A stretch of 53,526 bases of DNA from Desulfuromonadaceae bacterium (GTDB lineage Bacteria; Desulfobacterota; Desulfuromonadia; Desulfuromonadales; JAAYDE01), in assembly GCA_012512925.1 (NCBI GenBank), contig JAAZDE010000099.1, positions 1 through 53,526 of the forward strand. Direction: 5' to 3'. Position 1 is the first letter of the stretch, and each line of letters opens with the position of its first letter. The translations under genes were made by a program, and so were the position numbers. Under the pieces are notes generated by a model. It saw nothing but the letters and a program-made list of their open reading frames with translations. It searched no databases and had not been told where the DNA came from. Below, piece by piece: positions 1 to 13,272 of the stretch.

Positions 1-3000
1 CCGTGGTACCTTTCCTTTTCGTCAAAATGGGCTATTTGCTGAGGTTTGCCGTCGGGGTGGAATTCTTCGCTCTTGCGGCGGACATTCTGTTCGTAGGTTC
101 GGCGCTCCTTTAACGCCCCCGCGTGGGGGCCTTCGGGGTAAAAATGCATCCATTGACCGTGTTTGATCAGGGTCCCGCGAAAGACCTGGTATTTTTTGAC
201 GACCACCAGTGAGCCGTCGGGAAGCTTGTAACTGTCTTCCACCCAGACCACGTCGCCCCCCCCTTCAACGGTCAGTGTTGCCTTGTCGAAGGCGACGACG
301 CGGCCTTCGGAGGTAATCATCTGGACACTTATCCGGCACGTACCTGAAGAAGGCAGCATGAAAACGGCCTGGGGAGCGGTGGTCTCTTTCGCTTGGTGAT
401 TATCGATCTGCCAGGTGTAGGTGGCCCCTTTCGGGACGTTGGCCACCGAGGCCGACACGGTGAAATCCTTTCCGGCCGGCACCGTGATGTTGCGGGCTTC
501 CAGCGTTATGCCAGGTTCCCGACCTTTGTTCACCCGGATCGGCAGCTGGGCGGCGGCAATCGGTTTATCATTGGCGAGAAGATCCGCCCGCAGGGTGTAG
601 TCCCCTGAGTCCGGCCAGGCGTGGCTGTATTGGGAAGTGAATCGGCCGTTCTTCCTAACGACCGGTGTTTCCTTCTGAATCCCCGGAACCGGGCGCCAGC
701 GCACTTTCAGTTGGTCGGGTTCGATGTCTTTCGGCACGACATCCGCCAGCGCATGAAAAGTCGCCTCCTTCAGAGCCTCGGGATTTTCGGCGGCGGCCGG
801 TTCGATGCGGAAATCGAGATTGCTGAGAACCCGCACCTTGACCTCCGCAGCCTTGTCGGAACTGTTGGCGGCGACCAGATACAGCATATCGCCGGCACCG
901 ACGGAGATCTCGGCGGAAGGGTTCGCGCCGCTCAGGGACGCCGCCGGCTTGGCGCCGGCGGCGGATCGGTTATTATCCTTCAGGACATAGGCGTTCACTC
1001 GTGTCAGGGACGCCACATCCCCCTCGACCTCCACCGTTACCCTCCGGGCCGGCGGCTTTTCTTCCTTTTCGGCAATGGGGTTTTCCACCGACAAGGCCCA
1101 GATGTCGGCCGTACCGTGGGCTGAGGTTTTCAGAATCCCCTCGATCTTCTCGTCATCAAGGGCCAGACCCCCGATCGTGTGATACTGCGCCGCCAGGTCA
1201 AGGAGTTGGGAACTGTCGGAAACCAGCTTCTTGCAGGTGTCATCCAGCAACGCCCAAGCCACAAACTCGGCATAAGCATCGGCCAAAGTGGTTCCTCGGG
1301 CGCGCAGAAATCGGTCGATCATTCCGCAAGTCACCATCACCGTATAGGTTTCGAAAGGGTGGTCCACCCCGAGGAGTTTTTTAAAGAGAGCGAAGTCCGG
1401 CGCGCTGATCTCCTCCATGGCCAAAAGGCCGCTGGGGACACTCAGCGTTTCAACGGTCAGCTCTCGAAAATCAATCCCCTTTTGCGACACCATGAAACGG
1501 ACGAACTGGGAACAGGCATATTCGTGATAGCCGTCGACCGTGGTCAGGGGAAGTTTGAAAAAATCCGATTGCATGCCTTTTTGTGCCACGGTGAGACCCC
1601 ACACGGTTCGCGGGGCGAACTCGGCCAGCGCCTCGAGCCACCAGGTGCGGTAATTCATCGACATGATGGCCATGCCCAGATATTCCGCCTGCACGGTGTG
1701 AAAAAACTCGTGGGCGGAATTCGCCCTCAGAGTGGTCGGCCGCCAGGTGGCGGTGGGCGTGATCTCGATCGTTCCCAGCAGTTTGCCGCGATGGTTCTCG
1801 TCGCTCAGCGGTGAATTGACGCCGACATAGATATCGGTCCGGGTCCACTCGGGAACGTTGAACCCCAAATCCTTGTAGCGGTGCCAGGCGTATTCCAGGG
1901 CCTTGGCCATATAGACGATGTAGGTCGGCACGTCGTTTCGCCCTTCGACGACGATGGTTTCGGAGTCGACCTGGTGGGCCAGGCCGATCGGCTCCCCGTT
2001 GGATTCGAGATCATTGACCAGTTTGTCGGACCATCGTCCCTCGTTAACTTCAGTGTCTGTGAGGATGGTTTCCTTGCTGTAAAAGAGGGCGAAATGATCG
2101 GTGTATACCGCGTCGTGAATCAGGTTGTTGACAGGGCGAAGGACGATCGTCAGGAGGGTGAGGTGGCGGGTGCGGATCTCCACCTGACCGGTTTCCGCGT
2201 CGTAGGATACCGGAGTGTACACCCAGGCGCGGGCCGTTTCGTGGAAGTACATGGCGGCCAGTGGCTGGTTCCTCTGGGCCGCCCTTTGCACCGTTTCGGG
2301 AGGAAGTTGGAAGCGCAGGGTCAGGGGCTTGTCAAAGACATGGTGTTCCCCTAAAGAGACCTGCCAGGTCACGACGGCCTCCAGGCCCTTCACGGGAAGC
2401 GGAGCCGGGCTGACAGCCCGGGCAAGGACCAGCACTTCCGGTTTTTCCATGATTTCCGGGGGAATGACCACTTCGGCGCTGTCCACCTTTACCGTGACAG
2501 GATCCCGTTCCGCAAAAACCGTTTTGTCGTGGAGACGGCGCAGATCCACGCGCACCTCGGCCGGATCAACCCTCCCGTCGTTCGACTGTCCACGGCGAAA
2601 CCAACTGGCCTTGACGGCTTCGGTTGGTTTTCCGGAACTCTCCCTGGCGACATGCCGCGCGGATCCGGAAGCGGTTTCCTGAGCCGGCTGTCCGGGGGGT
2701 TGGCCGGTGACGGCCAGGTATTTTTCCAGTTTTCTCACCCGCTCAGCGATGACCGGATCGTCTTTCAGGGCCAACCCGGATTTATATTTTTCGAGGGCCT
2801 CCCCAAACCGATCCTGCAGCTGCAGTTGTTCCCCTTCTTTCCACAAGATGCCGGCCTTTCGGACATCGTTTTCGCCAAGTGCCCCCTGTTTCGGTCCCTG
2901 GGGAAGAATTTTTTCTCCGTCCCATGGCGCTTCAGAAGGATTCTCGCAGTGCCCCCAAACCCCTTCAAAGCGATCGTTGTTGGTAAAGCGGAAACGGAAC

Positions 3001-3293
3001 CGCCCCCAATAGTAGCTGCCGTTTTTGGGCGAGGAACAGCGATGAGCCGAGGTGTTTTCTGTCCAATAACCGGCCAGCGTGTCGCCCTTTAACTCCCCTG
3101 CAAGGGTGCCTCCCTCCCGGGCATAAGTCCCCGTCGTTGAAGAGTCCTGGAGGCGAAGATCCAGATCGCCTTTTGTGGTCCGCCATACCCCCTGAATATC
3201 GTCAAGGTCCATCGCGGCCATCGATGCGCCGGCGGAGAGGCAGGCCGCCACCCAAAAAAAAGCCGCCGGGATCCAGCACGAAAACCGTTTCAT
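1..3293 (-). CDS. Exported multidomain protein with gluzincin-type zinc metallopeptidase motif, PKD/Ig-like segment and C-terminal MORN_2/YwqK-like repeats (truncated by window start)
   Basis: Manual minus-strand translation from ATG at 3293..3291 stays open to base 1. Signal peptide MKRFSCWIPAAFFWVAACLSAGASMA; HEFFH (1712..1698) followed by WWLEALAEFA; PKD-like YTWQIDN; terminal HGQWMHFYPEG...EEFHPDGKPQ. Absent from the ORF track because it has no stop inside the window. Confidence 0.85.
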   Translation of the reverse strand, partial: MKRFSCWIPAAFFWVAACLSAGASMAAMDLDDIQGVWRTTKGDLDLRLQDSSTTGTYAREGGTLAGELKGDTLAGYWTENTSAHRCSSPKNGSYYWGRFRFRFTNNDRFEGVWGHCENPSEAPWDGEKILPQGPKQGALGENDVRKAGILWKEGEQLQLQDRFGEALEKYKSGLALKDDPVIAERVRKLEKYLAVTGQPPGQPAQETASGSARHVARESSGKPTEAVKASWFRRGQSNDGRVDPAEVRVDLRRLHDKTVFAERDPVTVKVDSAEVVIPPEIMEKPEVLVLARAVSPAPLPVKGLEAVVTWQVSLGEHHVFDKPLTLRFQLPPETVQRAAQRNQPLAAMYFHETARAWVYTPVSYDAETGQVEIRTRHLTLLTIVLRPVNNLIHDAVYTDHFALFYSKETILTDTEVNEGRWSDKLVNDLESNGEPIGLAHQVDSETIVVEGRNDVPTYIVYMAKALEYAWHRYKDLGFNVPEWTRTDIYVGVNSPLSDENHRGKLLGTIEITPTATWRPTTLRANSAHEFFHTVQAEYLGMAIMSMNYRTWWLEALAEFAPRTVWGLTVAQKGMQSDFFKLPLTTVDGYHEYACSQFVRFMVSQKGIDFRELTVETLSVPSGLLAMEEISAPDFALFKKLLGVDHPFETYTVMVTCGMIDRFLRARGTTLADAYAEFVAWALLDDTCKKLVSDSSQLLDLAAQYHTIGGLALDDEKIEGILKTSAHGTADIWALSVENPIAEKEEKPPARRVTVEVEGDVASLTRVNAYVLKDNNRSAAGAKPAASLSGANPSAEISVGAGDMLYLVAANSSDKAAEVKVRVLSNLDFRIEPAAAENPEALKEATFHALADVVPKDIEPDQLKVRWRPVPGIQKETPVVRKNGRFTSQYSHAWPDSGDYTLRADLLANDKPIAAAQLPIRVNKGREPGITLEARNITVPAGKDFTVSASVANVPKGATYTWQIDNHQAKETTAPQAVFMLPSSGTCRISVQMITSEGRVVAFDKATLTVEGGGDVVWVEDSYKLPDGSLVVVKKYQVFRGTLIKHGQWMHFYPEGPHAGALKERRTYEQNVRRKSEEFHPDGKPQQIAHFDEKERYH

Positions 3294-3349
3294 TTCCGAT
3301 TTTCCCTCCGTTTTTTTGAGGGGTACTTTATCATTTTTCATGCCGATAT

Positions 3350-3570
3350 TTGGTAAGGAGAAAGGATTTCCAAAAAACTGAGGGCGCCACCGCCCTGCAT
3401 TGCGTCCTCACCTCCGAGGATTCGACCCGGATTGTTCCGCTGCTGCTGGCCGCCGGTGCCGACCCCAATGCTCGGGGTGCAGGCGGCGAAACATCACTGA
3501 ACCGGGTAAGAATGGTTTTTATCGAACTCCGTGAGGCAGTCGGCGGCGCAACCAACCCGCCGCAGACGAC
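3350..3570 (+). pseudogene. Ankyrin-repeat gene remnant
   Basis: Short ORF GATALHCVLTSEDSTRIVPLLLAAGADPNARGAGGETSLNR matches the ankyrin repeat pattern but has no proper N-terminus and ends in low-complexity sequence. Confidence 0.45.
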
Positions 3571-3606
3571 AACGCCCCTGATTTACCGTTGCAGGGGCGT
3601 TTTTTC
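3571..3606 (+). terminator. Rho-independent terminator
   Basis: AACGCCCCTG - 11 nt loop - CAGGGGCGTT followed by a T-tract. Confidence 0.75.
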
Positions 3607-3690
3607 ATTCAGAGCAACCGCTTAACACCGGGAGGAGAATAATCTTTCAGGGTGACTTTTGGCGGCCAGCGGCTGATTCTTTGCTCATCG

Positions 3691-10461: not shown

Positions 10462-13272
10462 ATGACAAGTGAGAATCCGTTACAGAAAATTCAGGCTCTG
10501 GGACAAAGCATCTGGCTCGATTACCTCCACCGGGACATGCTTCGCTCGGGGGAACTGAAGCGCCTGATTGAGCAGGACGGGGTCTGCGGTGTCACTTCCA
10601 ATCCGGCCATCTTCAAGGAGGCGATCGCCGGCAGCAACGCCTACGACGAAGCCATCACCGCTCTGGTCAAGGATGGAAAAAGCGTCGACCGGATCTATCA
10701 GAGCCTGGTGGTTGAGGATGTTCGGACCGCCGCCGACCAGTTTCTGTCCCTTTACGAGGAAACCCAGGCTCTTAACGGCTACGTCAGCCTCGAAGTGTCC
10801 CCCTATCTGGCCCGCGACCTCAAGGGGACAGTGGAGGAGGCCCGCCTGCTGTGGCGCCTTCTCGACCGCCCCAACGTGATGATCAAGGTTCCCGCCACAA
10901 TCGAGGGATGCCGGGCCATCCGCCGGTTGACCGCCGAGGGGATCAATGTCAACGCCACTCTGCTCTTCAGCGTGGACCGTTATCGGGAAGTGGCCGAGGC
11001 CTACGTGGCGGGACTGGAGGATCGAGCCGCCGAGGGAAAACCGGTGGCAAAGATTGCCTCGATGGCCAGCTTCTTCCTCAGCCGCATCGACACCCTTCTC
11101 GACCCGCGCCTCCAGGAGATCGCCGGCGGCGACGGAGAGTCCTCGAAAAAGGCCCAGGAACTGATCGGGAAAATCGCCGTCGCCTCCGCCAAACGCGCCT
11201 ATCGCGTCTTCGAGGAGATCTTCCGCGACGGCCGCTTCCAGCGTCTGGCCGCTCTCGGCGCCGCGCCCCAGCGCCTGCTGTGGGCAAGCACCGGGACGAA
11301 GAATCCCGCCTACAGCGACGTCAAATATGTCGAGGAGCTGATCGGCCCCGACACGGTCAACACCATCCCCGTCAAAACCCTTGATGCCTTCCGCGATCAC
11401 GGCCATGCCGAGGGCACCCTGACCCAGGGGATGGCCGAGGCCGAAAAGGCCCTTGAACAGCTGACAGATCTGGGCGTCGATCTGGCCGAGGGAATGGACC
11501 ATCTCGAAGAGGACGGCATCCGCAAGTTCGTCCAGCCCTTCGACAGCCTCTTCAAAAAACTGGCTGAGGAACGGATCTCCATCTTGGAGAAATGCCGCGA
11601 ATATCAGCAGTTGGATTTGGGCCTGGACACCCGTTTTGTCCAGAAAAGGCTCAACCGCATGGAGGAGGAAGGCTTCGGGCGGCGCTTCTGGTCCAAGGAC
11701 CCGACCCTGTGGAAGAGAAATCGGCAAGCCCACGAAGAAATCCGGGGATTCATGGGTTGGCTCGAGGTCATCGAGGCCATGCAGGCGCGGCTGCCGGAAC
11801 TGGAGGGCTTCGCTGCCGAAATTAAAAAAGCCGGCTTCCGTCAGGTGCTGGTCATGGGAATGGGTGGCAGCAGCATGACGCCGCTGGTCTTCCAGCGCTG
11901 TTTCCCGGTGGGGGAAAATGGTCTTCCCCTGGCCATCCTCGACACCACCGACCCTCAAACCATTCTGCGCCTCGAAGGGGAACTGCCGCTGGCCGACACC
12001 CTGTTCATCGAAGCCAGCAAATCAGGAACCACCGCCGAGCCGTCGGCCTTTTCCAGCTACTTTTGGGACCGCCTGCGACAGATCAAGGGAGAGAAAGCCG
12101 GCGGCAACTTCGCGGCCATCACCGATCCCGGTTCCCCTCTGGCGGCCCGCGCCAGGGACCTCAAATTCCGCAAAATTTTTCTCAATTATCCCGATATCGG
12201 CGGGCGCTATTCAGCCCTCTCCTGTTTCGGCCTGGTTCCGGCCGCGCTCATGGGGATCGATCTTGGCCCTTTCCTCAACAACGCCCTGATGATGAAACAG
12301 GTCTGCGGCCCCGACATTCCCGAGCATAAAAACCCCGGCATGCTGCTGGGAGCCTCCCTGGGAGAAATGGCAGTACACGGCCGCAATAAGGTCACCTTTC
12401 TTCTTCCCGAACCGATACAGACCTTCGGCTTGTGGATCGACCAGCTTATCGCCGAAAGCACCGGGAAAGAGGGTACGGGCATGCTTCCCGTCACCGGTGA
12501 ACCGATCGGGAATCCCTCGGTTTATGGGGATGACCGGGTTTTCATCCACTATCGCCTCGGTTGTGAACGAGATCCGCAACTGGAAAAACTGGCCGAGGAT
12601 CTGAAAAAACTCGACCACCCGGTGATTACCCTTCAAATCGAGGGGGTCAAGGATCTGGCCGGGGAGTTTTTTCGCTGGGAGGTGGCCACCGCCGTCGCCG
12701 CCGCGGCCTTTGGGATCAACCCATTCGATCAGCCCAACGTCCAGGAGAGCAAAAAAAACACCCTCCGCATTCTGGAAAGCGGCGCTCTCTCCTCCCCTGC
12801 CGGTGACGGATTGAAACTGGACGGAGAAAGCGCCGATACAAATTTTGTCGAAGGAATGGAGGAGTTCCTGGCCCGCCGCCGGCCCCGCGACTATCTGGCG
12901 CTGATGGCCTATCTTCCCGACAGCGAAGTCATCGAATCGTCTCTGCGGGAACTTCAGGCGCTGTTGCGCGACCGCACCCACCTGGCCGCCACCCTCGGCT
13001 TCGGTCCCCGTTTTCTCCATTCGACCGGCCAGTTTCACAAGGGGGGACCCAACACCGGCCTGTTCATCCAGATGACATGCTCTCCGCGGCGGGACCTGCC
13101 CGTTCCCGGCCTCGCCTACAGCTTCGGCGCCCTGATTCGGGCTCAGGCTCAGGGTGATCTGGAAGCGCTGGGCAAAGCCGGCCGCCGTGTCCTCCGCATC
13201 GATCTGGGGGAGAATCCCGGGCAAAAGCTGGCTGAGCTGGTCAAGCTGGTCCAGGACCGAGTTGTCATTTGA
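10462..13272 (+). CDS. Bifunctional transaldolase / glucose-6-phosphate isomerase
   Basis: N-terminal transaldolase (GVTSNPAIFKEAI, VMIKVPAT, WASTGTKNPAYSD) fused to a phosphoglucose isomerase-like domain (MGMGGSSMTP, SKSGTTAEPSAF, GGRYSALS). Confidence 0.93.
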   Translation: MTSENPLQKIQALGQSIWLDYLHRDMLRSGELKRLIEQDGVCGVTSNPAIFKEAIAGSNAYDEAITALVKDGKSVDRIYQSLVVEDVRTAADQFLSLYEETQALNGYVSLEVSPYLARDLKGTVEEARLLWRLLDRPNVMIKVPATIEGCRAIRRLTAEGINVNATLLFSVDRYREVAEAYVAGLEDRAAEGKPVAKIASMASFFLSRIDTLLDPRLQEIAGGDGESSKKAQELIGKIAVASAKRAYRVFEEIFRDGRFQRLAALGAAPQRLLWASTGTKNPAYSDVKYVEELIGPDTVNTIPVKTLDAFRDHGHAEGTLTQGMAEAEKALEQLTDLGVDLAEGMDHLEEDGIRKFVQPFDSLFKKLAEERISILEKCREYQQLDLGLDTRFVQKRLNRMEEEGFGRRFWSKDPTLWKRNRQAHEEIRGFMGWLEVIEAMQARLPELEGFAAEIKKAGFRQVLVMGMGGSSMTPLVFQRCFPVGENGLPLAILDTTDPQTILRLEGELPLADTLFIEASKSGTTAEPSAFSSYFWDRLRQIKGEKAGGNFAAITDPGSPLAARARDLKFRKIFLNYPDIGGRYSALSCFGLVPAALMGIDLGPFLNNALMMKQVCGPDIPEHKNPGMLLGASLGEMAVHGRNKVTFLLPEPIQTFGLWIDQLIAESTGKEGTGMLPVTGEPIGNPSVYGDDRVFIHYRLGCERDPQLEKLAEDLKKLDHPVITLQIEGVKDLAGEFFRWEVATAVAAAAFGINPFDQPNVQESKKNTLRILESGALSSPAGDGLKLDGESADTNFVEGMEEFLARRRPRDYLALMAYLPDSEVIESSLRELQALLRDRTHLAATLGFGPRFLHSTGQFHKGGPNTGLFIQMTCSPRRDLPVPGLAYSFGALIRAQAQGDLEALGKAGRRVLRIDLGENPGQKLAELVKLVQDRVVI

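Follow-up and report, generated by a model that had tools for sequence, protein, structure and literature searches.

The start of the window, by which we mean the whole stretch of DNA analysed (53,526 bases, the entire contig G000:C22), raises the question of whether a long frame absent from the default list of open reading frames is a gene and, if so, what kind of protein it encodes and how that protein might work.

Reading frame and N-terminal modules

An earlier note on this DNA had described an uninterrupted minus-strand frame from the ATG at 3293 that was missing from the ORF track, and both statements were borne out. Translation gives a frame open from ATG 3293 to base 3 on the minus strand, with 1,097 codons and no stops, and the default list omits it because it runs off the edge. 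The frame is considered to be coding rather than a chance opening because it has a homolog in a Phycisphaerae MAG (L035, its best relative), the two being 72% identical across the full peptidase domain and 59% identical in the 852 residues that align. Its codon usage and GC3 (0.71) agree with those of neighbouring genes; recent horizontal acquisition was considered, and codon usage gave no sign of it. A second in-frame ATG is located at 3341, 16 codons upstream of ATG 3293, but the latter is preferred because it is preceded by GGAGG at a distance of about 11 nt and leads directly into the signal peptide. We conclude that the window begins within a genuine gene, one that encodes a large, exported protein of a bacterium (P0001; truncated CDS at 3..3293, minus strand, as are all of its features given below). 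Since the window is the whole contig, the C-terminus of this protein is lost at the contig end. The surroundings are ordinary chromosome, including thioesterase, DUF2868, DUF3482, transketolase and recC genes, and a transaldolase-phosphoglucose isomerase fusion (10462-13272, plus strand) that adjoins the transketolase gene. Directly upstream of the frame and divergent from it is a short ankyrin-repeat fragment (3350-3622, plus strand), possibly a gene remnant.

The Sec signal peptide claimed earlier is present (aa 1-27; 3213..3293), with the correction that a lipobox-like sequence also lies within it. The signal is ambiguous, and can be read either as lipobox-like V15-A-A-C18 or as having a signal peptidase I site near SMAA-MD, between A and M. 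Lipoprotein-type signals are found in relatives such as L035 (LVGC), L037 (LGGC), L041 (VISC), L045 (LIGC) and L049 (LAGC), and the window protein may be lipid-anchored via its N-terminal fragment. Next comes a W/G-rich domain (aa 30-128; 2910..3206) with two invariant cysteines, C86 and C116, for which no relatives were found in Pfam or the PDB. The N-terminal ~100 residues, described earlier as being of unknown type, are a two-Cys domain that recurs elsewhere in the phylum. Secreted proteins of 240 aa from the same class carry two copies of it in tandem (L002:1495-2217, minus strand; L004), and it also lies within a TPR protein of L003 in which the module order is swapped, the TPR motif preceding the domain rather than following it. 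To the domain list of the earlier note we add a TPR-like motif C-terminal to this domain (aa 143-192; 2718..2867), which shares 49% identity with part of the TPR protein of L003/L009.

The beta-sandwich and its H-L-T triad

Roughly 140 residues directly before the peptidase, unrecognised in the earlier note, form a predicted beta-sandwich (aa 246-388; 2130..2558). Single-sequence searches with this region against Pfam, NCBIfam and PDB sequences returned nothing meaningful, and it was recognised only with a 16-row profile and a structure model. The AF2 model built from the 16-row alignment had a pLDDT of 92.6, and Foldseek matched it in the PDB to the GAIN domain of CD97 (1.4e-4), ankyrin ZU5 (2.2e-4) and the GAIN domain of BAI3 (1e-3), all with a probability of 1.00. 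The sequence profile, compared with PDB sequences, matched ankyrin-1 (E=0.0017) and adhesion GPCR F1 (0.037), and the alignment to ADGRF1 passes through the invariant Trp and sets H-L-[ST] on the H-L-T of ADGRF1. Judged from profile and model, aa 246-388 is a predicted beta-sandwich of the ZU5/GAIN/Nup98 superfamily that carries an intact triad at its end, H377-L378-T379 (2157..2165). GAIN domains cleave at HLT or HLS, between the Leu and the Thr or Ser (PMC11697300), and PIDD and Nup98 are cut between the Phe and Ser of HFS, by an N-O/N-S acyl shift that requires Ser, Thr or Cys (PMC3210808). The alignments and these precedents suggest self-cleavage of the window protein between L378 and T379, just before the peptidase.

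In the 16-row alignment, position 1 of the triad is His in 15 rows, position 2 is Leu or Phe in all 16, and position 3 is Ser in 10, Thr in 4 and Cys in 2; the triad also appears as THLS and DHLT in L049 and L061. Of 297 sampled genomes of the phylum, 29 hold related domains, which occur in proteins of widely differing length; most of the ZU5-like domains aligned from other proteins of the phylum carry H-[FL]-S, so that the triad is general to the bacterial domain rather than special to this protein. For the same reason it could be kept for structure: the protein would then be an active exported gluzincin whose ZU5/GAIN-type domain serves merely as a structural or adhesion module, with HLT as a fold relic and no autocleavage. 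We take this to be a serious possibility, albeit not the reading we would choose. It is favoured by the wide occurrence of the triad, by the absence of the triad His in two relatives (L037 and L016), and by the ankyrin ZU5 matches, which are equally good; to our knowledge, ankyrin ZU5 adopts this fold without cleaving itself. However, the nucleophile position holds only Ser, Thr or Cys in the 16 rows and Ser or Thr in 21 of 21 broader sequences, and the axonemal protein Casc1, with H-L-A at the triad position, shows that the fold tolerates loss of the nucleophile.

The predicted peptidase domain and C-terminal modules

The sandwich leads into a predicted gluzincin-like peptidase domain related to MXAN_6640 (aa 386-738; 1080..2138), recognised from relatives, profile and model. 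It contains the HEFFH zinc motif, H528-E529-x-x-H532 (1698..1712); the segment WWLEALAEF (1617..1643), in which E554, separated from H532 by 21 residues, probably provides the third zinc ligand; and H590-E-Y592 (1518..1526), possible transition-state residues whose His and Tyr are invariant in the ZU5-bearing subgroup. HExxH, Gln535 and Trp551 are invariant in three alignments, which comprised 9 to 15 relatives of mostly 20-30% identity; Glu554 varies hardly or not at all, with Asp in its place in L036. The two proposals of the earlier note, that HEFFH is a zinc motif and that the Glu of WWLEALAEFA is the third ligand, thus gained support from HExxH being invariant among about 15 relatives and from Glu554 being kept in nearly all of them. 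Orthologs lacking the His and Glu residues, or a region around HEFFH without a peptidase fold, had been named as findings that would count against a peptidase; His528, Glu529, His532 and Glu554 proved to be conserved, and the best matches of the model around HEFFH were gluzincins, at modest scores.

The sole NCBIfam match of the peptidase region is NF045524, the MXAN_6640 family of putative metalloproteases (23.5 bits, E=4e-5), which is also the best NCBIfam peptidase-family match for nearly every relative tested. By the curated cut-off of 140 bits, neither the window protein nor L035 (29.9 bits) scores as a member, but relatives bridge the gap, with 138 bits for L013, 104 for L022, 28 to 50 for most others tested and lower values for a few. 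The likeness lies in the HExxHxxQ ... WWxEA core; the difference is that the closer family relatives checked (L013-L015, L017, L048, L052, L063 and others) are without a ZU5/GAIN domain. By sequence, the HEFFH region is a divergent relative of this HExxH family; a literature search on MXAN_6640 found no papers. Membership of the M9 collagenases (PF01752) was rejected at 11.5 bits against a cut-off of 26: these bacterial enzymes resemble the window protein in their layout of gluzincin and PKD but have other flanking domains.

The AF2 model of the catalytic domain was moderately confident (pLDDT 71, pTM 0.80), with HEFFH lying in a helix and the WWLEALAEF segment in the helix that follows. Its top 11 Foldseek matches were MA-clan metallopeptidases apart from one protein of unknown function at rank 7; M4 Gentlyase (prob 0.87) and LasB (0.91) led, and M60-like enzymes, M1 aminopeptidases and LTA4H also appeared. 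The scores were modest, with TM about 0.3-0.37 and E-values of 0.09 and above, none being below 0.05, and for this reason conservation outweighs fold score in the peptidase call. That HEFFH is a coincidental motif of some unrelated helical domain might be argued from the weak library scores, NF045524 and M9 alike, but cross-phylum conservation together with the gluzincin structure matches speaks strongly against it, and we consider it very improbable that the domain is not a peptidase. Retention of the gluzincin fold as a binding scaffold without catalysis would fit the many binding modules of the protein and the Asp at the third-ligand position of L036; HExxH is, however, invariant in every row of the three alignments and the Glu, His and Tyr are conserved too, which leaves such a pseudo-enzyme unlikely, if a little less so than a chance motif. 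Sequence and model thus support a predicted gluzincin zinc peptidase as the working part of the protein.

Downstream of the peptidase are a beta-rich region that alignment shows to be common to relatives (aa 739-845; 759..1079), a PKD-like domain (aa 929-997; 303..509) and the start of MORN_2/YwqK-like repeats (aa 1013-1097; 3..257), cut by the contig end and complete in L035. The PKD-like segment and terminal repeats reported earlier both gained support through this ortholog. PKD (PF00801, curated cut-off 23.5 bits) scores 23.1 bits here and 32.3 in L035; MORN_2 (PF07661, cut-off 29.6) scores 13.7 here and 18.4 in the ortholog tail, where the repeats are visible by eye. The L035 frame encodes 1,119 aa. 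Its signal is of the lipoprotein type, and neither the N-terminal W domain nor the TPR motif is present. The sandwich, peptidase, beta region and PKD are shared, and MORN_2-like repeats then occupy roughly another 150 residues. Recovery of the missing C-terminus, which had been advised, was achieved in part: searching the remainder of the assembly for MORN_2 revealed no continuation of the gene, and the Phycisphaerae protein supplies a likely end. By comparison with it, the window protein probably ends in MORN_2-like repeats as well. The Omnitrophica relative L042:4422-7310 appears, by eye, to end in a MORN_2-like tail, and hence the combination of ZU5, peptidase and MORN_2 may not be unique.

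Distribution, proposed mechanism and significance

No full-length orthologs were found in 58 relatives, 395 genomes of the phylum, plasmids, viral contigs or a first contig scan; L035 was found only by a motif-based scan for HE[FL]FH[AT]VQ and WW[LF]EA patterns, which gave 48 related loci. When 136 genomes of the order were searched with the peptidase profile, none but this genome gave a convincing match, three others reaching E-values of 0.06-0.09. The Phycisphaerae match and the absence from the order together indicate old transfer or loss; the finding of 72% identity between L035 and this genome, when the remaining 135 genomes searched from the order yield no convincing copy, might reflect either old horizontal transfer or a MAG binning problem. 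The order of sandwich then peptidase recurs in MAGs and genomes labelled Planctomycetota, Chloroflexi, Omnitrophica, Acidobacteriota, Halanaerobacter, Clostridia and Methanospirillum. One ZU5-HExxH protein lies in a Methanospirillum MAG (L040:4360-7089), and the architecture may therefore reach archaea, unless this is a binning error. The genome of the window itself encodes a second large exported ZU5-HExxH protein (G000:C5:14000-17466; L124, 3-3263, minus strand), with a peptidase-like region of HELFHHYQ ... LMEAS, the triad H-C-S and an N-terminus that resembles that of L036 by eye.

Building on the observed domain identities, conserved motifs and fold similarity, we infer autocleavage, retention or release, peptidase activity and the location of the protein, and slightly favour a combined model of a self-cleaving domain and a gluzincin peptidase in one exported protein. 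The multidomain protein would be exported, possibly lipid-anchored, and located at the surface or in the periplasm. After folding, T379 would attack the carbonyl of L378 in an N-to-O acyl shift, with H377 assisting, and hydrolysis of the resulting ester would follow. Comprising the W domain, the TPR motif and most of the sandwich, the N-terminal fragment would keep hold of the peptidase fragment non-covalently via the post-cut strand, and release or re-arrangement of this strand may free, expose or position the peptidase. H528, H532 and E554 would act as Zn ligands and E529 as general base, the PKD and MORN_2-like repeats may bind the target or the envelope, and the substrate would most likely be an extracellular or envelope protein.

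Compared with the GAIN domains of adhesion GPCRs and polycystin-1 (subdomain B, GPS), the window protein shares the beta-sandwich, the conserved Trp and a terminal H-L-[TS] followed by a strand; it differs in showing no sign of subdomain A or GPS Cys pairs, in not being a membrane receptor and in its fusion to a peptidase. With the ZU5 domains of ankyrin, PIDD and the FIIND of CARD8/NLRP1, it shares the fold and the H-[FL]-[ST] motif. ZU5 domains of bacterial surface proteins and polymorphic toxins have been proposed as autopeptidases that process surface proteins (PMC3482391); the bacterial surface setting is the same, but the window protein has no RHS/SpvB toxin architecture, and its cargo is a gluzincin with PKD and a MORN_2-like tail. 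ZU5-type domains of bacterial surface proteins being already described, the architecture is not a new class. What is added is the placement of a GAIN/ZU5-type domain, its triad intact, immediately ahead of a gluzincin, in an architecture that recurs across several phyla. More speculatively, and with less confidence than in any reading above in which the peptidase is active, these proteins might belong to a class of surface gluzincins, widespread among bacteria and archaea and so far undescribed, that are controlled by a GAIN/ZU5 domain and cut themselves between the Leu and Thr of H-L-T into two chains held together as in an adhesion GPCR; removal of the N-terminal fragment by force or ligand would then unleash the peptidase.

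In animals, the GAIN domain is investigated as a mechanosensitive tether that is cut by itself. With a bacterial homolog fused to a peptidase, one could ask in a simple setting whether cleavage and non-covalent retention preceded receptors, and whether an enzyme is gated by the sandwich. If true, the model would give a function and a mode of regulation to a peptidase superfamily that libraries name only 'putative'.
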